Below, in pieces: positions 4,391-16,839 of a DNA stretch of 20,160 nt; position 1 is the first letter of the stretch, and each line of letters starts with the position of its first letter. Under the pieces are notes generated by a model. It worked only from the letters and a program-made list of their open reading frames with translations, had not been told where the DNA came from and did no database searches. Source of the stretch: a virus; IMG/VR virus record IMGVR_UViG_3300034407_003972, positions 1 through 20,160 of that record; one strand, given 5' to 3'. A program made the translations under genes and the position numbers.

Positions 4391-5062
4391 TTATTTTTTT
4401 GTTAATTTTTGATAATAACTTACCCCAATATACGGATCAATATTAGTGTATCCAACCCCATCGTAAAAGAATTGTACACCTCCATTTAGTCCTAAAATGT
4501 ATCTTCTTTTAGTACGTAATAGCACTCCTAAATTAGCATTAGCTAGATTAAATGGTTTAAGAGCAAACCCTGTATTAAAACCTAGATATAATTCTCTAGC
4601 ATTAATATAATGCTTTTCTGTGATTGTGTTTGTAATAGTTGGGTATAAAATATTATACCTTGAAGATCTACCTGCGATTTGGTTTTGGGTAATTGTATCA
4701 TACACAATAAAAGTAATACTATCAGTATGGATTACAGTATCCACATAATAATACTTAGCAAAATAGTCATCTAAAATAGCTGAAGTATCAGTTGGTTCAA
4801 TTTTATATTCAATCTGGGTAATTGTATCATGAATATATTTTATAGTTTCTCGTTCGTAATATTGAGGGACATAGCTAACTGTTTCATTAGTTACAGTATC
4901 ATAAGTAACTATTGATGTTGTATCTCTAATAATAACAGGTTCAGTGGGACCTCCATTTCCGTCTCCACAGCCTTTCATTAGTAAAACTATAATTAATACT
5001 ACTATTAAAACCGTATTAATTACCCTAAATTTTTCGTAGCTACGAGGTTGTTCTTGCATCAT
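4391..5062 (-). CDS. Inner-membrane-anchored periplasmic protein with beta-rich C-terminus, 223 aa
   Basis: A charged N-terminus is followed by one membrane helix (about 15-29, INTVLIVVLIIVLLM) and then GCGDGNGG; C32 just after the helix might suggest a lipobox, but MKGC is a poor match. Residues 43-150 hold repeated DTxT/DTI strands (RDTTSIVTYDTV, YIHDTITQIEY, VYDTITQNQI) reminiscent of DUF6808-type phage proteins. The last 70 residues (ELYLGFNTGFALK, IDPYIGVSYYQKL) alternate like outer-membrane beta strands. It could bridge inner and outer membranes, a spanin-like layout, but no spanin family is recognised. Two ATGs in a row; the first is used. A two-part promoter precedes it. Confidence 0.7.
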   Translation of the reverse strand: MMQEQPRSYEKFRVINTVLIVVLIIVLLMKGCGDGNGGPTEPVIIRDTTSIVTYDTVTNETVSYVPQYYERETIKYIHDTITQIEYKIEPTDTSAILDDYFAKYYYVDTVIHTDSITFIVYDTITQNQIAGRSSRYNILYPTITNTITEKHYINARELYLGFNTGFALKPFNLANANLGVLLRTKRRYILGLNGGVQFFYDGVGYTNIDPYIGVSYYQKLTKK

Positions 5063-5113: not shown

Positions 5114-5458
5114 TCAGAAATCTGACATTACCTCTTCGTCAATTGCTTCTTGTACTTCCTCTCTTGTTGCGTCTGTTTCAAACATAATGTTAGGAGAAAA
5201 TCTTTCTACTTCTTCGCCTTCATTAAATATTATTAAAGTTGGTACAGCATATATTTTATATTTTTTAGCTGCATCCGGGTCTGTTTCTATACAAATTCTT
5301 TTTTTAGTACAATCTGATACTTTATTTAACCATTCAACATCATTTGCTTCATTCCATGGTGCATTAAATTGCACTACACATAAGTTATACCCACAAGGTG
5401 ATTGTGAATAAACATTAAATCCTATAAATAAAAATATAAGTAATACAAATTGTTTCAT
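5114..5458 (-). CDS. Exported thioredoxin-fold protein lacking the CXXC active site, 114 aa
   Basis: Signal peptide at 1-18 (MKQFVLLIFLFIGFNVYS, cleavage before Q). Residues 27-95 follow the thioredoxin fold: VVQFNAPW strand, helix, CIETDPDAAKKYKIYAVPTL with the cis-Pro loop (P73), then strand-turn FNEGEEVERF. Where active thioredoxins have WCxxC, this protein has W35-N-E-A-N39, so both catalytic cysteines are replaced. Other cysteines are present (C22, C27, C50, C56). It probably binds a partner in the periplasm rather than doing thiol exchange. The ATG overlaps the upstream stop (ATGA): last gene of the coupled envelope run. Confidence 0.75.
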   Translation of the reverse strand: MKQFVLLIFLFIGFNVYSQSPCGYNLCVVQFNAPWNEANDVEWLNKVSDCTKKRICIETDPDAAKKYKIYAVPTLIIFNEGEEVERFSPNIMFETDATREEVQEAIDEEVMSDF

Positions 5459-5784
5459 TTTAAATCGTCTAACTTCTCTTCAATACGTTTCAAATCTTCC
5501 TTTATTTCCGAAACATCTTCTTGAGTAGTCATAATCGTTTGACGAACCATTTGGTCTTTCATATCAAACTCCATTCTCGTAACATCTGGTTCTGGGATGC
5601 GTTCATCTACTTTAGCATCCCATTCTTCATCCCATTCATTTTTAGGCAATTCTTTTGCCTCTTCTATATCTGCTTGTAAAGCAAACCACATTCCCACTAC
5701 AGTAGCTATCCCTACTGCTATACCACCTAAGGTTTTAATACTAACCTTAAATGAAGTATCTTCGTTTAATTCTTTAGTTTTCAT
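5455..5784 (-). CDS. Membrane-anchored coiled-coil protein, 109 aa
   Basis: MKTKELNEDTSFKVSIKTLG leads into one membrane helix (about 17-37, LGGIAVGIATVVGMWFAL). An acidic linker (IEEAKELPKNEWDEEWDAK) is followed by a helical coiled coil at about 68-109 ending KRIEEKLDDLK. I recall this layout, with the phrase EFDMKDQMVRQTIM, from proteins of marine T4-like phages, where it is uncharacterised. Topology suits an inner-membrane protein with a helical arm. ATGA overlaps at both ends place it between the beta-barrel gene and the thioredoxin-fold gene. Confidence 0.75.
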   Translation of the reverse strand: MKTKELNEDTSFKVSIKTLGGIAVGIATVVGMWFALQADIEEAKELPKNEWDEEWDAKVDERIPEPDVTRMEFDMKDQMVRQTIMTTQEDVSEIKEDLKRIEEKLDDLK

Positions 5785-6830
5785 TTTATCAAAGTATAAT
5801 TTAAACCAACACTAAATTTATGCCAACTTCTATTCCAGTACTTATGATAAGTACCTTCAGTAAAGATTCCTAACTGTTTTGTTAGCTTCCATCCAAAAAT
5901 AAATCCACCACCATAATCAACCCAGTTTTTATTTCCAATAGATCTTCTATATGAATACTCACTCTTAAGTGGAATGTGATAAGGTATTACACTACCCCAA
6001 GTATGTACCCAAAAGTCTTTAGTGTAATGATATAAGTCAAATCCTGCTATTAAACTATGATTCCATTGTACAGGTAATTCAGATTCTTTTTTAACCACAT
6101 AATCATCTAGTACGTCTGGAATAACAACTTGTTCCCATACTTCAGGTGATGTAGCTACTAATTCTCCATCTGGGTTAAAGAATTCTCCATTATCATAATC
6201 AACTGTATAGCCTTCTTGTAATGCAAGGTAAGTATAATGTAAATTACCATTATCTAATACCCATTCAGCTAAAGGATCATACCCATATGGTTCAGATATT
6301 CTTTGAACGAATCCAGCATTTAAAGAAAATTTAGTGCCTATCTTCCATCTAAATCTTTGAGATGCTTCAAAGTATTTAATATCAGCAAATCCATTTTGTA
6401 GATATTCAAATTTAGTTAACCACCAATCATCTACATATCTTAAGAAGTGATGCTGGTCTAGATAATTTTGTCCTAATAATCTTCTGTATTGGAATAAGGA
6501 TAAGAATTCAAATCCAGATACTTTACCAATAGTAGCAGCATCACCATAAGATTGCTCAGTACCATCATAAAATACTTTAGCTCTATTTTCATATCCAAAT
6601 CTAGCTATCTTTCTAGCACCTACGCTTACTGAAAAGTCAAATGGTGTTTTAGCTGTTTGTTGCAGTAATGTTCCTGTCGCAACAGAATAAGTATTTACAT
6701 CAGCAATAGAGTTACCTCCATTGATAGCTCCATAAATAGTGGAGTACTTAAATGCACTCTTAATTTTCGGACCAACTTGAGCGTTTGCTATACTAACACA
6801 AAGTACTAATATTAAAGTAATTAATCTCAT
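5781..6830 (-). CDS. Outer-membrane beta-barrel-like protein, 349 aa
   Basis: A clean signal peptide at 1-18 (MRLITLILVLCVSIANAQ) is followed by aromatic-rich alternating strands with polar turns throughout, for example FDFSVSVGARKIARFGYENR, RFRWKIGTKFSLNAGFVQRI, NWVDYGGGFIFGWKL and the ending HKFSVGLNYTLIK. Strand pattern, aromatic girdle (many Tyr/Trp) and a hydrophobic final strand point to an outer-membrane beta-barrel; the terminal Lys is less usual than Phe/Tyr. No TonB box or plug. Phages rarely encode such a protein. Possible roles are receptor masking (superinfection exclusion), altered permeability or outer-membrane weakening at lysis. ATGA overlaps link it to the T9SS cargo gene and the coiled-coil gene. 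Confidence 0.7.
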   Translation of the reverse strand: MRLITLILVLCVSIANAQVGPKIKSAFKYSTIYGAINGGNSIADVNTYSVATGTLLQQTAKTPFDFSVSVGARKIARFGYENRAKVFYDGTEQSYGDAATIGKVSGFEFLSLFQYRRLLGQNYLDQHHFLRYVDDWWLTKFEYLQNGFADIKYFEASQRFRWKIGTKFSLNAGFVQRISEPYGYDPLAEWVLDNGNLHYTYLALQEGYTVDYDNGEFFNPDGELVATSPEVWEQVVIPDVLDDYVVKKESELPVQWNHSLIAGFDLYHYTKDFWVHTWGSVIPYHIPLKSEYSYRRSIGNKNWVDYGGGFIFGWKLTKQLGIFTEGTYHKYWNRSWHKFSVGLNYTLIK

Positions 6831-9295
6831 TCTTTTACTATTGTTTTAATTAATGTTCTACCATTAAATGTCATTACTATATTATAAGTTCCAGCTGCTA
6901 CATCAGATAAATCTATCTCTCTAGGATTATTTTTACTGATAATAACTTGACCTACTATATCTTTTACTTCAACTTTTACTTCCATATCAGTAACAATATT
7001 CAAAGTAGTTCCAACTGGATTAGGATAAACTATAATCTGATTAGGTTTTACATCTGGAAGACCTACTATATCTTGTTGGTCATTACAAACATTATACATT
7101 TCTTGGCATGTTTCATCCCAATTATTATCACAGCAATAATCATCAACTGAAATAACCCAAGCATAACATTGATCATTTAACCAGTATGGATTACCAGGTC
7201 CATCAATACAATCAGCTGCATATAAGCAAGTATCTGGAACGTTAGCATCAGGATCAAAATTATATGCTGAAGCATCCATGCAACCATAAACAGGAATAAT
7301 ACACCCTCCATTATCAACATTTGCTGTTGAGTCATAATTTAGTGCTGTAGGATCTGTACAACCAAATACTGCTAAGGTATAACAAAACTCTTCTGACCAA
7401 TAATCTACTAACGAACTATCAGCTAAATAATATTCTAAGTATCCTGGATTAGAACAAGCTGGTGTGTAATAGCATGAGCCGTCATTAACGTTAGCTGAAT
7501 CTACAAAGTTATAAGCTAGAGAGTCAGTACAACCATATACTTTAGGAATACAATAGTCTCCACAGTATGGAACTCCTTTATATCTAAAAGGAAACTCTTT
7601 GATAGGATCCGTCCATATGTTAGTTCCACCTTGTACTACAGTATCGCCTTCCGGACCTATTAGATAAAAGCCACATTGATCAGCTGAGAAGCCTCCTCCA
7701 CCTTCTGTAAAGAAGAATACTTCAACTTCTTTATTTGCTCTTAGATTTAGAGTAAATGTTTCAGAAATACCATCTTGTGGTCCCATCGTATATCTTGATG
7801 ATATCCAGTTACCTTGTTTTACACCAATCCAGTTACCAAACCAACCATCACCTACTCCATCGGTTATTACTAATGTATAATCACATTCTGGGATGAAGTC
7901 TGGTGTATTAGCAGTTGAATCATAGTTAATTGAATTACTATCTAAACAGCCATACACTTTCAAAGTTTGACAAGCTGGTATGATATTATGAGTAGCTAGA
8001 GGATTATATTCTACATAATTAGAATCAGTACAGCCAAATATTGGCCCTCCAGGATTACAAGGAACCATATTATATAATAAGGATGAATCTACAAATCCAA
8101 AATCTGCATCACCAGGATATAGTTCATAGATTGTATCACAATTACCTTTAGTAACTAATACTTCACCATCTATACCTCCAAAACATGAACCACATAGTCC
8201 GTCTCCAAATTCATCATATAATATAAATTGATATTGACTATTATTTGGTATACAAAGTCTATCCACATAAGTAGTATTACCTTCTTCAAATGGACCTGCT
8301 TGTCCTATAATACTATCATTTTGATCTCTTACTTCCCATTTAGTTTCTTGAGGGTATTGATCAGTTGTTAATTCGATTTCAAGTACTTCACAGCCAGGTG
8401 GACAGGTAATTAAGCAAGTACCATCATCATAATTAGCCCATGGATTCCAGTTAGGTGATGTAGGATCCGTACAACCTGGAATAGCTCCACAAGGTAAGCA
8501 TGATTCCCAACAATATAATGGAAGTACTGTATCACTTTCTAAATCTAATATTCTATTAACGAATCCAAATTCTTCTTCAAAGCATTCATTGTCTTCTCCT
8601 ATAAATGGTAATTCTTGTATATTCCAATTATCTGCTGAGAACTTCCAAGGATAAACTCCTCTTTCTATCTGTAAGGTAGTTTCCCAAATACCATTACCCA
8701 TATCAGTCATTTGGTTACATTCTCCACACCATCCATTGAATACCCCATTTACTTCAGGTGTATCTAAAGGAGGTGCTATAGATACATCTAATCTGAATGT
8801 AACATCATAAATGTATTCGCAAGCAGTTCCAAATAAATCCCATGTAGCAGTTGAATCATAATTAGATGAAGCAGGATCTGAGCATCCTATTATTGGTAAG
8901 AGACATGGATTAGATACAGTAAATGGATACTCCCATTCACTCCAATTAGTATAATCTGGTAAAACTGTAGTGCTAATTTGACCGCACCAATTACCGACAA
9001 AGAAATCTACTTCATCATTTGGTATACTATCGAATCCATTTCCAGCAGCATCCTCTAACCATAGTACATAATCACCTATATTAGGTAGTTCAATGTATTC
9101 AATAATTTCAGTTCGTTGACCTGGAGGTCCATAATTACCTCCTTCATCAATAGTATCTCCAGTTGCTACTTCTTCTACGTACCAAGAAAATTCTTCGGGG
9201 TGAGTATCAGTTTCCAACCTAAATGCTACCCAGCTTGTTTGAGCTGATAGAAATAAAGGTAAAAATGTAAGTAATGTTAATAAATTCTTTATCAT
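6827..9295 (-). CDS. Large secreted multidomain protein with type IX secretion C-terminal signal, 822 aa
   Basis: Signal peptide 1-19 (ending LSAQ) sends it to the periplasm. Two to three beta-domains of the type TxxxPxExxWxVxD...DGxGDG (20-125, 305-395, about 470-560) alternate with seven GC(T/S/L/M)D..A.NY...A repeats (137, 274, 421, 449, 588, 645, 671). Residues 180-230 (VNGVFNGWCGECNQM...WKFSADNW) resemble a carbohydrate-binding E-set domain. Near 717-730 is DDYCCDNNWDETC. Residues 754-822 are a Por_Secre_tail-like domain, IIVYPNPVGTTLNI ... GTYNIVMTFNGRTLIKTIVK, the T9SS sorting signal. So it should cross the outer membrane through host T9SS and be attached or released. About 30 cysteines imply disulphides. 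ATGA overlaps at both ends. Confidence 0.85.
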   Translation of the reverse strand: MIKNLLTLLTFLPLFLSAQTSWVAFRLETDTHPEEFSWYVEEVATGDTIDEGGNYGPPGQRTEIIEYIELPNIGDYVLWLEDAAGNGFDSIPNDEVDFFVGNWCGQISTTVLPDYTNWSEWEYPFTVSNPCLLPIIGCSDPASSNYDSTATWDLFGTACEYIYDVTFRLDVSIAPPLDTPEVNGVFNGWCGECNQMTDMGNGIWETTLQIERGVYPWKFSADNWNIQELPFIGEDNECFEEEFGFVNRILDLESDTVLPLYCWESCLPCGAIPGCTDPTSPNWNPWANYDDGTCLITCPPGCEVLEIELTTDQYPQETKWEVRDQNDSIIGQAGPFEEGNTTYVDRLCIPNNSQYQFILYDEFGDGLCGSCFGGIDGEVLVTKGNCDTIYELYPGDADFGFVDSSLLYNMVPCNPGGPIFGCTDSNYVEYNPLATHNIIPACQTLKVYGCLDSNSINYDSTANTPDFIPECDYTLVITDGVGDGWFGNWIGVKQGNWISSRYTMGPQDGISETFTLNLRANKEVEVFFFTEGGGGFSADQCGFYLIGPEGDTVVQGGTNIWTDPIKEFPFRYKGVPYCGDYCIPKVYGCTDSLAYNFVDSANVNDGSCYYTPACSNPGYLEYYLADSSLVDYWSEEFCYTLAVFGCTDPTALNYDSTANVDNGGCIIPVYGCMDASAYNFDPDANVPDTCLYAADCIDGPGNPYWLNDQCYAWVISVDDYCCDNNWDETCQEMYNVCNDQQDIVGLPDVKPNQIIVYPNPVGTTLNIVTDMEVKVEVKDIVGQVIISKNNPREIDLSDVAAGTYNIVMTFNGRTLIKTIVKE

Positions 9296-9519
9296 GATTT
9301 TGAGCCAAATATTTTTTCGGCTCCCGCAATTCCTAGAGAACCTAATGTTATTAAAACAAATGAATTGTAAATAAATTCATTAATAATTAAATCTTTTCCA
9401 CAGTACCCAGTAGCTAAATCTACTACTGCAAATATTACCATTATGGCAAATGATAAAAATCCAACAACGGATTTTTCATTTATATCATTTTTATCCCTAA
9501 ATAATTCTTTAATCCACAT
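9292..9519 (-). CDS. Two-helix membrane protein, holin-like, 75 aa
   Basis: MWIKELFRDKNDINEKSVVG is followed by helices at about 19-36 (VGFLSFAIMVIFAVVDLA) and 52-69 (NSFVLITLGSLGIAGAEK). Size and two-helix topology fit a class of small phage membrane proteins, some annotated as holins. A longer frame starts at 9543, but the ATG at 9519 has AAAGGA eight bases upstream and a shorter overlap with the holin-like gene, so it is preferred. The stop overlaps the ATG of the T9SS cargo. Confidence 0.65.
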   Translation of the reverse strand: MWIKELFRDKNDINEKSVVGFLSFAIMVIFAVVDLATGYCGKDLIINEFIYNSFVLITLGSLGIAGAEKIFGSKS

Positions 9520-9958
9520 TTCTTTTTCCTTTATGGTTGTCAATTTTATCTAAAATTTCGTTTAATAACTCCATTTTAATAAAACCAGCCATAGAGGCGT
9601 TTTTCAATGCAGAGATGATTTGAAAAACCATGAATGGTAAAACTATAGTTTCGCTTAACCAGGAAACTTTAAATGATACTTCTATACTTAATACTACAAA
9701 TAATATTAACCACCAAGTAAATACATTTCTTAACACTCTTAGGGCTTTGTATGTTTTAAACCCTTCACGCTTTACACCAGCTAATATACCAAAAAATCCA
9801 TCTAATAATACTACAAAACCAACAGATAAAAACTGTTCATTATAAGTCATAGTAATATTAAGGATATGGTCGCAAACGTAGCCCATGAATGCAGAGGAAG
9901 CTAGTATTACCTTTAATGGTAAAGGTAAATTTAAAATTTTTAGTAACGCTTCCTTCAT
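9509..9958 (-). CDS. Putative holin, Phage_holin_4-like, 149 aa
   Basis: Four hydrophobic segments (about 12-30, 44-62, 78-96, 100-118). The second contains VVLLDGFFGILAG, like the LxxLDxxxGxLxA motif of holin family 4, and the C-terminal SALKNASMAGFIKMELLNEI resembles that family's ENxxxLGxP helix followed by a charged tail. It would sit in the inner membrane and permeabilise it at lysis. The resemblance is by eye. It opens a six-gene coupled run and is preceded by an ATATTTAT motif. Confidence 0.6.
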   Translation of the reverse strand: MKEALLKILNLPLPLKVILASSAFMGYVCDHILNITMTYNEQFLSVGFVVLLDGFFGILAGVKREGFKTYKALRVLRNVFTWWLILFVVLSIEVSFKVSWLSETIVLPFMVFQIISALKNASMAGFIKMELLNEILDKIDNHKGKRNVD

Positions 9959-12563: not shown

Positions 12564-12649
12564 AATAAATGTTTAATTGAAAAATATGGCTAGATTAAGC
12601 CGCGATATGTAATCGTTGGAAATACATATGAATAAGATGTTGTAAAACG

Positions 12650-12722
12650 TGACTCGGCTGGGGTTCGAACCCAGGACCCATACATTAAAAGTGTATTGCT
12701 CTACCAGCTGAGCTACCGAGTC
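12650..12722 (-). tRNA. tRNA-Lys (anticodon UUU)
   Basis: Folds by eye into a full cloverleaf of 73 nt: acceptor GACTCGG/CCGAGTC with discriminator A, D-arm GCTC/GAGC with AGCTGGTA loop, anticodon stem ATACA/TGTAT with loop CTTTTAA, T-arm CTGGG/CCCAG with TTCGAAC. No CCA is encoded. Its 5' end lies one base after the stop codon of the DUF6150-like gene, so it must be processed out of a longer transcript. It decodes AAA/AAG, codons frequent in this AT-rich DNA. Confidence 0.95.
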
Positions 12723-12723
12723 A

Positions 12724-13026
12724 TTAGTAGGTCTCCCAAGGATTATTTACTCTAAAAACAAGTTTATCAGCTTGATATCTATAATCCACCCAAAATACTT
12801 TATAACGAGCTTGGTGGGGATAATCAACCATATACCAATGATGCCTTTGTTCATCGGCCTGAAATTGATAATCAGTTATCCAATATTTAATATCAGCTTG
12901 ATAGGGATAATCCACTTCATATAATAAAATATCTGCCTGATAAGCATAGTCTACCTCAAACATTGTTTGAGAAAAACTAATAAAAGGTAAAAATATTAAA
13001 GTAAAAAGTATATTTTTAATAAACAT
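12724..13026 (-). CDS. DUF6150-like exported repeat protein, 100 aa
   Basis: A signal peptide (MFIKNILFTLIFLPFISFSQ) precedes five to six tandem units of 13-14 residues: EVDYAYQAD, EVDYPYQAD, ITDYQFQAD, MVDYPHQAR, WVDYRYQAD and a degenerate VNNPWE. The VDYxxQAD repeat is the hallmark of DUF6150, small Bacteroidota proteins of unknown function, as I recall the family. The product should be periplasmic and beta-structured. The ATG at 13026 is chosen over a TTG six bases upstream; it lies two bases after the upstream stop. Confidence 0.75.
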   Translation of the reverse strand: MFIKNILFTLIFLPFISFSQTMFEVDYAYQADILLYEVDYPYQADIKYWITDYQFQADEQRHHWYMVDYPHQARYKVFWVDYRYQADKLVFRVNNPWETY

Positions 13027-13028
13027 AA

Positions 13029-13223
13029 TCAAAAATAGTTATAACCTACTATTACTACTGTAAAAATACCTACAATTAACATCAAAAAAAATCCAGTCAT
13101 CTTTACAAGAAAACTAGAGCTAATTGGGGTTTGTTCAGCATCAGCTTTAGTACCTTCTGATATTAAAGTATAAACTCCAATAGAAAATAAAGCTGTTACT
13201 AATGATGCTAAAAATCCTACCAT
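13029..13223 (-). CDS. Two-helix membrane protein, 64 aa
   Basis: Begins MVGFLASLVTALFSIGVYTL, then a polar loop (SEGTKADAEQTPISSS) and a second helix (GFFLMLIVGIFTVVIVGYNY). A longer frame reaches 13280, but that part overlaps another gene; ATG 13223 forms a TAATG junction with the upstream stop and is preferred. A hairpin membrane protein of this size could be a holin or antiholin, but no family signature confirms it. Confidence 0.65.
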   Translation of the reverse strand: MVGFLASLVTALFSIGVYTLISEGTKADAEQTPISSSFLVKMTGFFLMLIVGIFTVVIVGYNYF

Positions 13224-13393: not shown

Positions 13394-13419
13394 AGTATAA
13401 AATTAAAATTAAAAAATAG

Positions 13420-13491
13420 TACTCCCAGGAGGAATCGAACCTCCATCAAAGCTTTAGAAGAGCCTCGTTTTATCCGTTAAACTATGGGAGC
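13420..13491 (-). tRNA. tRNA-Arg (anticodon UCU)
   Basis: A 72-nt cloverleaf: acceptor GCTCCCA/TGGGAGT (one G-U pair) with discriminator A, D-arm GTTT/AAAC, anticodon stem AGGCT/AGCTT with loop CTTCTAA, T-arm GGAGG/CCTCC with TTCGATT. No encoded CCA. It begins nine bases after the nuclease gene's stop. It reads AGA/AGG, which dominate Arg codons here, complementing tRNA-Lys(UUU). Confidence 0.93.
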
Positions 13492-14827: not shown

Positions 14828-15472
14828 TTAAATAGATATCTTTACATTTCCTGATCCGTCTCTATATAACCTACCTGCTATGCCAGGATCAGATGTGGGT
14901 AAATTTGTAAAGTTTATTTCATTACTAGTTACTAATAAGGCTCCAGATCCAGTAATATCCAGGTAGAACCTAGTAGAATTTGTGCCCTGACTAATGTTTA
15001 TAATTGGGTTAGCACCATAACTTTGAAATTTTATGGTGTCAGCTTTTGCAACAAATGATTCTTCACCAGCTAAAGATCCTATTTCAAGTATAGAATTAGC
15101 AGTAGTTCCAAAACTATTTAATATTATCTTACTATCCTCAAATCTAATAAAGGTATCTGCATCTTTTCTAATTTCATCTATATTTGTTATATGACGAAGT
15201 GAACCTGTATTGGCAAAAATATCTCCACTGGCACTCATATTACCAGATGCTGTGATATGATTTGCTATAATATTACCACTTGCACTTATTATAGATGCTG
15301 TTATAGCTGTAGTAGTAGAGGCACCTGCGTTTGTTACTTGCTGAAGTGTAGGTGTACTTCCTCCTCCTCCTGTACCAGATAACCCACTACCATCTCCTAC
15401 AAATGAACCAGAAAACGAACCCGATATGATTATAGTAGATGATAGTTGATTTCCTGTTATTTTTCCTACCAT
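14828..15472 (-). CDS. Fibre-like virion structural protein, 214 aa
   Basis: Gly/Ser/Thr-rich beta-repeat protein: SGSFSGSFVGDGSGLSGTGG near the N-terminus, then repeats such as ITASIISASGNIIANHITAS and GNMSASGDIF. The C-terminus, INFTNLPTSDPGIAGRLYRD and GSGNVKISI, is nearly identical to that of the next protein. LPTSDP...G.L is a common ending in marine T4-like phage tail proteins, as I recall. Likely an elongated trimeric fibre or a tail-decorating protein. It starts 14 bases after the 450-aa gene and probably shares its transcript. Confidence 0.7.
   Translation of the reverse strand: MVGKITGNQLSSTIIISGSFSGSFVGDGSGLSGTGGGGSTPTLQQVTNAGASTTTAITASIISASGNIIANHITASGNMSASGDIFANTGSLRHITNIDEIRKDADTFIRFEDSKIILNSFGTTANSILEIGSLAGEESFVAKADTIKFQSYGANPIINISQGTNSTRFYLDITGSGALLVTSNEINFTNLPTSDPGIAGRLYRDGSGNVKISI
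14829..14906 (-). repeat. Shared C-terminal module, copy 1
   Basis: The end of the 214-aa gene repeats that of the 450-aa gene: 36 consecutive bases are identical (14841-14876 and 15500-15535) and similarity runs on to about 14906. It encodes the TNLPTSDPG...NVKISI ending. Confidence 0.85.
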
Positions 15473-15486
15473 TATATATTTTTACT

Positions 15487-16839
15487 TTATATGGATATTT
15501 TTACATTTCCTGATCCGTCTCTATATAACCTACCTACTACACCAGGGTCGGAAGTAGGTAGATTTGTGAAATCAATACTAGCACCCACAATTTTTAAAGA
15601 ACCAGCTGAACCCGTAGATGTGGCACTACCACTTATATTGGCAGATGCAGTAACATTAGTGGTATTAACATTGGTTATAGTAGTAACATCTAAAGTAGAA
15701 GATTGTATGTGATCAAATGAGCCTGTTATACCAAATACTGTATTACTAGCGCTTACTAGGGATGCTGTTACGTTAGTAGTATTAACATTAGCTATAGTAA
15801 TGACATCCAGGGTGGAGGTTATTATATGATCAAATGAACCCGTTATACCAAACACAGTATTACTTGCGCTTACTAGGGATGCTGTTACGTTAGTAGTATT
15901 AACATTAGCTATAGTAATAACATCTAAAGTAGAGGTTGTTACATGATCAAAATAACCACTTATATATGATATATCACCACTTATACTTACATCAGCTGAA
16001 GCTGTTATAGGTTGTAAAGTTCCAGATCCTATGCGTATAGCTTTACCGAATATTTCTAATTTACTACCAGTTGATCCTAATTCTAAACTACCACTGATAA
16101 ATCTAGCAAATTGTCGTCCGTTTGAAGTAAATCCATTAGCTTCAATAAAACTAGCTGATATATGTTTAAATGAACCCGTTATTCCAAACGTATCCCCACT
16201 AGCACTAATATTTCCTTCAGCCTTAATATTACCTGATGCTGTAACATGGGTAGTATCCACATTAGCTATTTTAGTAACGGATAAAGTATCTCCCGAAAAT
16301 GTTATATCAGCATCATCTGATAAAAGACCATCCGCTCCTGCTAGAACTACACGCCCATTAGTTAAGGAGTCAGCAGTAAGTGTTTGTGCTCTAAAATCAA
16401 AACCTCCAATATCTAAATCATTAGCAGCAGTTAAACTAGAAATTTGATCAAATGTACCTCCTTCTATGTCGGCATGAGCAAAAACTCCCGATATAGCAGA
16501 CATTACACCACTGGCACTAATATTACCTCCAATGCCTGTTGCTGAATCAACTGAAGCTGTTATATGACCTATAATATGTTGGGAAGCTACAAACACATTA
16601 GAAGCTGTAATAGCATAGGAACCTGTTTTTGCTGTAAGAGTATCAACTTTACTAGAAGTAAAATCATTAAATGAAGCAGTAGTAAGATACCTAGATCCTG
16701 AATCTTCAGGAAATATGGCACTATCCATAAGGTTGTTAAGTTCTGCCCTTAACTTGAATGGAGTGATTTGTCCCGTATTATTATTGGGTAAATTGTTTTG
16801 AAAACTTTGGGATAATGCTGTTCTACTTAGTGAGCTCAT
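15487..16839 (-). CDS. Repeat-rich fibre-like virion structural protein, 450 aa
   Basis: The N-terminus MSSLSRTALSQSFQNNLPNN, then FKLRAELNNLMDSAIF, probably docks on the virion. The rest is beta-repeat sequence rich in TAS, SASG and TGSF. Three 39-residue units reading VITIANVNTTNVTASLVSAS then NTVFGITGSFDHI lie near the C-terminus, two of them almost identical in DNA. The last 29 residues match those of the 214-aa protein. This suggests a long fibre with expandable shaft and a conserved tip or trimerisation motif. No chaperone or lectin domain recognised. Two ATATTTAT motifs precede the gene. Confidence 0.7.
   Translation of the reverse strand: MSSLSRTALSQSFQNNLPNNNTGQITPFKLRAELNNLMDSAIFPEDSGSRYLTTASFNDFTSSKVDTLTAKTGSYAITASNVFVASQHIIGHITASVDSATGIGGNISASGVMSAISGVFAHADIEGGTFDQISSLTAANDLDIGGFDFRAQTLTADSLTNGRVVLAGADGLLSDDADITFSGDTLSVTKIANVDTTHVTASGNIKAEGNISASGDTFGITGSFKHISASFIEANGFTSNGRQFARFISGSLELGSTGSKLEIFGKAIRIGSGTLQPITASADVSISGDISYISGYFDHVTTSTLDVITIANVNTTNVTASLVSASNTVFGITGSFDHIITSTLDVITIANVNTTNVTASLVSASNTVFGITGSFDHIQSSTLDVTTITNVNTTNVTASANISGSATSTGSAGSLKIVGASIDFTNLPTSDPGVVGRLYRDGSGNVKISI
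15488..15565 (-). repeat. Shared C-terminal module, copy 2
   Basis: Second copy of the C-terminal module, at the end of the 450-aa gene, 659 bases from copy 1. Direct orientation, so it could support recombination between the two fibre genes. Confidence 0.85.
15711..15944 (-). repeat. 117-bp in-frame tandem repeat in fibre gene
   Basis: Two full copies (15711-15827, 15828-15944) differ at a handful of positions; degenerate copies flank them on both sides. The period of 117 bases is 39 codons, so copy number can change without frameshift. Confidence 0.9.

Follow-up and report, generated by a model that had tools for sequence, protein, structure and literature searches.

We analyzed a 20,160-bp stretch of viral DNA (positions 1 to 20,160 of the IMG/VR virus record IMGVR_UViG_3300034407_003972, hereafter the window), in which an earlier note, made from the sequence alone, had pointed to a phage gene for a cargo protein of the type IX secretion system (T9SS). 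The cargo gene belongs to a conserved four-gene cassette that also encodes a phage-only outer-membrane beta-barrel. This cassette, missed in the note, is a larger finding than the cargo alone. We moderately favor the reading that the phage uses the T9SS of its host to show a modular surface protein of its own, held by its own barrel, shielding or remodeling the surface of the infected cell.

The cargo gene lies on the minus strand at 6827..9295, exactly the positions that the note had given without a strand; its open reading frame starts with ATG and encodes 822 amino acids. Along the protein, a signal peptide is followed by beta-sandwich domains, an E-set domain resembling a carbohydrate-binding module (CBM), GCxD repeats, a Cys-rich base and a type A T9SS sorting domain. 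The sorting domain (residues 756-822; 6830..7030, minus strand) was matched by TIGR04183 over all 72 profile positions (E 9.8e-8, 31.9 bits against a cut-off of 23) and by PF18962 (E 6.2e-8, 33.3 bits against a cut-off of 27), and the PF18962 search of 14 control genomes gave zero matches above the cut-off. By sequence, the cargo family profile matches the solved T9SS sorting domains 8glk, 8glj and that of gingipain. In the AlphaFold model of the cargo (mean predicted local distance difference test score, pLDDT, 77), the C-terminus superposes on the T9SS-bound NucA sorting domain 8glk_D with a template modeling score (TM-score) of 0.75, at 2.4 Å over 73 columns and with a probability of 1.00; the Ig-like sandwich fold seen in the bound domain is thus predicted for the cargo as well. 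As two curated models, the structure match and conservation (PF18962 is matched by 33 of 35 distinct cargo relatives) agree, a chance match was rejected. The Por_Secre_tail-like end claimed in the note, for which it had proposed profile searches and structure prediction, is therefore borne out, as is the claim of a phage gene for a T9SS cargo.

Ahead of the sorting domain, the features are of more varied strength. The N-terminus (residues 1-19, MIKNLLTLLTFLPLFLSAQ; 9239..9295, minus strand) has the form of a Sec-type signal peptide, as the note had proposed, a prediction made by inspection and hydrophobicity that agrees with a helix at residues 2-17 of the model. Signal-peptide-like N-termini are found in 111 of 119 cargos. 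The E-set or CBM48-like domain (residues ~160-260; 8516..8818, minus strand), described in the note as CBM-like, is weak in the window copy (AMPK1_CBM, E 0.11). It is, however, significant in two relatives (best E 2e-7), and the Foldseek matches of the cargo model include glycogen-branching enzymes, in agreement with this assignment. The repeats that the note had read as GCTD are real and take the form GCxD, with 7 copies in the window cargo and 3 to 27 (median 10) across 82 distinct relatives. They lead to the Cys-rich base (residues ~694-738, including CYAWVISVDDYCCDNNWDETCQEMYNVC; 7082..7216, minus strand). Outside the sorting domain, Foldseek returned scattered beta-sandwich matches of low value.

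That the window is phage rather than host DNA follows from its being a virus record, from its lysis genes (a peptidoglycan-binding amidase endolysin and a holin-like gene) and from the terminase, portal and capsid genes of its relatives. Contamination by host chromosome was thus rejected, and neither of the two findings that the note had named as contrary to its claim, namely a host chromosome and the lack of any sorting-domain match, was obtained. One relative (L007; 99% identity over its 157 cargo residues) has upstream genes similar to those of the window, and another, L002 (79% cargo identity), a contig of 88 kb, carries a gene for the T4 capsid protein gp23. A more distant relative, L006, has terminase-, portal-, protease- and capsid-like neighbors, of which the terminase was tested and the others were named by sequence reading. 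The neighbors in L003-L005 are RecA-like, helicase and ribonucleotide-reductase genes, again named from reading the sequences.

Three genes follow the cargo gene on its 3' side, all on the minus strand and all joined by 4-bp overlaps. The barrel gene (5781..6830; 349 amino acids) overlaps the cargo gene by ATGA. It is followed by a gene for a protein with one transmembrane segment and a predicted periplasmic coiled coil (5455..5784; 109 amino acids) and by one for a secreted thioredoxin-fold protein without CxxC (5114..5458; 114 amino acids). CxxC, the redox motif of active thioredoxins, is present in only 2 of 155 members of this thioredoxin-like family. The cassette was found in more than 100 IMG/VR loci from two unrelated phage groups, one T4-like and one elemo-like and podoviral, which differ in their terminases. 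It should be noted that some contigs were fetched more than once, such that the loci counted are partly non-independent. Our barrel scan found at least 158 viral stretches. We retained 80 of them, which with the window makes 81 barrel-anchored loci, and all four genes are present in 68 of these. When loci were instead anchored independently, by the thioredoxin-like protein, the barrel was present in 51 of 52 and a recognized cargo sorting domain in 40. In several of the remaining loci, a protein with a signal peptide ends in what looks like a truncated sorting domain (e.g., YDLYGR...KKFIK). C-termini like shortened or divergent sorting domains, unrecognized by the sorting-domain profile, were also observed at L144:5320-7545, L176:5319-7373, L183:5375-6409 and L165:5467-5985. 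In 85 cargo-barrel pairs, the barrel gene comes right after the cargo gene and overlaps it by 4 bp; a minority of pairs are spaced otherwise. Exactly one PF18962 match was found in 36 of 38 long contigs, the exceptions being G001, which ends within the cargo gene, and G033, with a divergent end (21.9 bits, TIGR04183). Neither the cargo nor the barrel matched any PHROGs family.

The barrel was modeled by AlphaFold from a 54-row alignment, giving about 12-13 strands and a low-confidence loop at residues 78-104 (mean pLDDT 76). Its best solved matches in Foldseek are generic outer-membrane barrels, with a query TM-score of up to 0.42, and it resembles the viral model A0A516LKJ4 (24% identity, TM-score 0.61). 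A search of the PDB sequences with the barrel profile gave nothing up to E 10. In close pairs, dN/dS (the ratio of non-synonymous to synonymous substitution rates) of the barrel is 0.02-0.13, indicating purifying selection.

The cargo ectodomain is exchanged between close cassettes, while the base and the barrel are kept. For example, loci L039 and L046 have barrels that are 99% identical and sorting domains that are 91% identical, yet their cargos, compared in blocks of 50 columns, are mostly 17-59% identical in the N-terminal part and 90-100% identical in the C-terminal part. Loci L119 and L121 show the opposite, with ectodomains of 92-100% identity and barrels of 81%. Because the ectodomain is exchanged, we favor a role at the surface; the exchange is in keeping with a part that meets something that varies outside the cell, rival phages or receptors being the simplest candidates. 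The particular roles suggested in the note, namely coating of the infected cell, blocking of other phages, polysaccharide binding and aggregation, are conjectural.

The mechanism that we propose would run as follows. Sec would export the cargo, the type A sorting domain would carry it through the T9SS translocon, and the phage barrel, whose gene comes next and is translationally coupled, would receive and hold it at the surface, as SprF and PorP do for type B cargo. The inner-membrane coiled-coil protein and the periplasmic thioredoxin-fold protein may help with folding or assembly, or provide trans-envelope bracing. The head on display (beta-sandwich, E-set and GCxD domains) would be exchangeable, most likely serving to protect or alter the cell surface so that competing phages are kept off or progeny do not adsorb again. 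In Flavobacterium, type B cargo requires a PorP/SprF-like barrel of its own, which is commonly encoded directly downstream and is needed in stoichiometric amount (PMC12618676, PMC9143113). The phage pair resembles SprB/SprF and PG1035/PorP in joining a T9SS-tagged surface protein to an outer-membrane barrel, encoded directly downstream in SprB/SprF-like pairs (PMC12618676, PMC9143113). It differs in that the cargo is of type A rather than TIGR04131 type B, in that the barrel falls outside the PorP/SprF models, and in being phage-encoded, with coiled-coil and thioredoxin-fold partners. Since the pair reproduces the type B layout, with a sorting signal of type A and with a barrel that the models of neither the PorP/SprF nor the PorV family recognize, we propose by analogy that the barrel is a dedicated phage anchor or shuttle, SprF-like in its working but not claimed to be SprF.

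Several points weigh against this proposal and should be considered along with it. Among 54 barrel members, none matched the PorP/SprF family models (NCBIfam and Pfam) at E 0.5 and none matched the PorV family models, and membership of the barrel in either family was rejected on these Pfam and NCBIfam searches. The modeled barrel, with its low-confidence loop, seems to have about 12-13 strands rather than the 14 of FadL-type barrels, FadL being among its fold matches at a TM-score of about 0.35. Known type A cargo uses the general shuttle PorV and no dedicated barrel (PMC12618676). Early superinfection exclusion is hard to reconcile with the gene order of several phages, in which late or structural genes surround the cassette, and some lineages have genes between cargo and barrel or have the cargo downstream. 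In favor of the proposal, the stretch from 160 to 72 residues before the cargo C-terminus tracks barrel identity best (rho 0.74 over 76 loci, against 0.24 for the ectodomain, 0.35 for the sorting domain, 0.44 for the thioredoxin-like protein and 0.32 for the coiled-coil protein), but this is only suggestive of a coupling between base and barrel, since common descent and the linkage of the genes confound the correlation and since, in the 27 loci that separate cargo from barrel, barrel identity is followed about equally well by the coiled-coil and thioredoxin-like proteins.

In another account, the cargo is an ordinary type A protein shuttled by PorV, to be released into the medium or bound to surface polysaccharide, with the barrel independent and merely co-expressed. 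The phage cargo does bear a sorting domain of the kind that PorV collects, type A cargo in Flavobacterium is PorV-dependent (PMC12618676), and phage cargos without a cassette barrel exist, in phage immuto and, from the available part of its description, in Cryophage (PMC7468147). PorV is one general host shuttle; the phage barrel is part of one cassette and is not recognized by the PorV models. An independent barrel sits poorly with its retention in 51 of 52 independently anchored loci, with the overlap of cargo and barrel genes in 85 pairs and with the tracking of the barrel by the cargo base, and we consider this account unlikely.

The cassette could also be a device for lysis or outer-membrane disruption, in which the coiled-coil protein serves as the inner-membrane spanin (i-spanin), the barrel is its outer partner and the cargo loosens the surface. 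This rival has to be taken seriously, because the coiled-coil protein, with its one transmembrane segment and predicted periplasmic coiled coil, has an i-spanin layout and because the cassette adjoins endolysin and holin-like genes in the window, as it also does in L129. The holin-like protein of the window (phrog_199; 9509..9958, minus strand) is encoded a short way upstream, within the same compact tract, but is an inconstant neighbor of the cassette. Relatives of the tested lysis genes lie near only 8 of 68 well-flanked loci, although other lysis families would escape this count. Elsewhere, the cassette stands beside portal, capsid, ribonucleotide reductase or large virion genes, and lysis gives no reason for the exchange of ectodomains. 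We thus hold this role to be improbable, if worth keeping in mind. Less probable again is a block of the host T9SS, with the cargo jamming or saturating the system or taking the place of PorV or SprF, such that host T9SS surface proteins, possibly phage receptors, are no longer displayed. The resemblance of the sorting domain to T9SS-engaging domains would suit this, and the phage barrel could conceivably occupy the shuttle site of the translocon, but a long and repeatedly exchanged ectodomain would be needless for jamming.

When only the GCxD repeats of the cargo are considered, there are matches in S-CAM3 cyanophages and in a marine virus. The host lineage of cyanophage S-CAM3 is not known to have a T9SS. 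In Synechococcus phage S-CAM3 (NC_031906.1, ~36814-36981), the repeats occur in a protein annotated as virion structural. Together with the position of podoviral cassettes among structural genes, this would suit a cargo that is a virion protein (fiber or decoration) with an incidental sorting domain. We give this very little credence, as signal-peptide-like N-termini are present in 111 of 119 cargos, the sorting domain is kept in nearly all and the cargo is coupled to an outer-membrane barrel.

Returning to display through the T9SS, the hosts of the phages are probably flavobacteria. A strong match to terminase phrog_6681 was found in about 27 of the 38 long contigs, and its isolate relatives are Flavobacterium 'elemo', Cellulophaga, Tenacibaculum and Maribacter phages; T4 gp23 is present in 8 of the 38. 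With its counterpart in Flavobacterium phage immuto, the T4-like terminase shares 57% identity, though a Microcystis phage scores equally high. Because the terminase relatives belong to flavobacterial phage isolates, there is good support for a T9SS-bearing flavobacterium as the host of the podoviral phages; for the T4-like group such a host is likely, and for the window phage we infer one. Two unrelated marine virus groups that carry a T9SS-tagged cargo nearly always beside a barrel gene thus probably infect flavobacteria. In the barrel tree, the podoviral sequences cluster together (support 79/83) with T4-like branches around them, a pattern that appears consistent with few transfers and long inheritance. 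No relatives of the barrel or cargo were found in 84,980 species genomes by a pattern scan and tblastn, which reach mainly close relatives. Likewise, tblastn of three barrels, the thioredoxin-like protein and the coiled-coil protein gave nothing in 50,697 GenBank phage records, where distant relatives would be missed.

Five phage records hold a second gene, separate from the cassette cargo, with a T9SS type B sorting domain (TIGR04131 over the cut-off): L003:17746-19803, L004:17893-19980 and records G003, G031 and G036. This gene carries GCxD repeats, as seen in L003, and no PorP/SprF-like barrel is evident beside it in L003 and L004. At the end of the L003 phage locus (21066-22478) is the start of a SusC/RagA-like TonB-dependent receptor gene, which may be a phage gene or an assembly join.

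A phage T9SS cargo, in itself, is already published; what appears to be new is the cassette. The note had held that such substrates are rarely, if ever, described, which is only partly right. Cryophage encodes three type A cargo proteins, namely an endoglucanase, a GH39 protein and a PA14 protein (PMC7468147, 2020), and T9SS sorting domains were reported in gut phage contigs in the BACON paper (PMC6949934, 2019). In Flavobacterium phage vB_FspM_immuto, the protein immuto136C_15 (MW353177.1 12691-13422; L135) has a type A sorting domain (37.8 bits); it is annotated only as 'cohesin domain-containing protein', with a C-type lectin-domain gene nearby. Since these cargos exist, the window cargo alone adds one more member to a known kind. 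Like the Cryophage and BACON phages, the cassette phages carry genes ending in a T9SS sorting domain, the host system presumably being hijacked, and in Cryophage, too, the cargo varies between relatives. Unlike the cassette phages, these phages are described, in the portions available, without a dedicated barrel or conserved cassette; compared with the Cryophage cargos, window-type cargos are modular, non-enzymatic-looking ectodomains from two other phage groups. Phage immuto is similar in being a T4-like flavobacterium phage with a type A sorting domain, but its protein is short and cohesin-annotated, and no cassette barrel was found in immuto, elemo or Manatee Spring phages by a search run without a positive control. 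Within the open-access literature, which leaves subscription papers and preprints outside the scope, no report of a cargo-barrel cassette or of phage use of the T9SS for exclusion was found.

Other genes of the window, all on the minus strand, also deserve mention. A small protein with two transmembrane segments (9292..9543) is encoded upstream of the cargo with a 4-bp overlap, and its relatives adjoin the cassette in 20 of 68 well-flanked loci. A 223-amino-acid protein (4391-5062) has an N-terminal transmembrane segment and a C-terminal stretch resembling short outer-membrane strands, such that it could span both membranes in a spanin-like manner; among barrel-bearing loci, it was matched only in the window. 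Two adjacent tail-fiber-like proteins (14828-15472 and 15487-16839) have near-identical ends (TNLPTSDPG..GRLYRDGSGNVKISI), which suggests a duplicated C-terminal module. A secreted 102-amino-acid DUF6150 protein with VDYxxQAD-like repeats (12724-13032) is encoded near tRNA-Lys (12649-12722) and tRNA-Arg (13419-13491).

Taken as a whole, the cassette may tentatively be seen as a virus-only trans-envelope display system, with four co-inherited proteins at the inner membrane, periplasm, outer membrane and surface, a type A cargo with its own barrel anchor outside PorV and PorP/SprF, and two unrelated phage groups that exchange surface heads on a constant base. If true, type A sorting domains would seem able to work with a dedicated barrel, and phages would have a route of surface display outside the known superinfection-exclusion proteins. 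A widespread, undescribed gene set of ocean viromes would then gain a meaning, and phages of a major marine bacterial phylum would routinely rebuild the infected-cell surface through the host T9SS with an anchor of their own.

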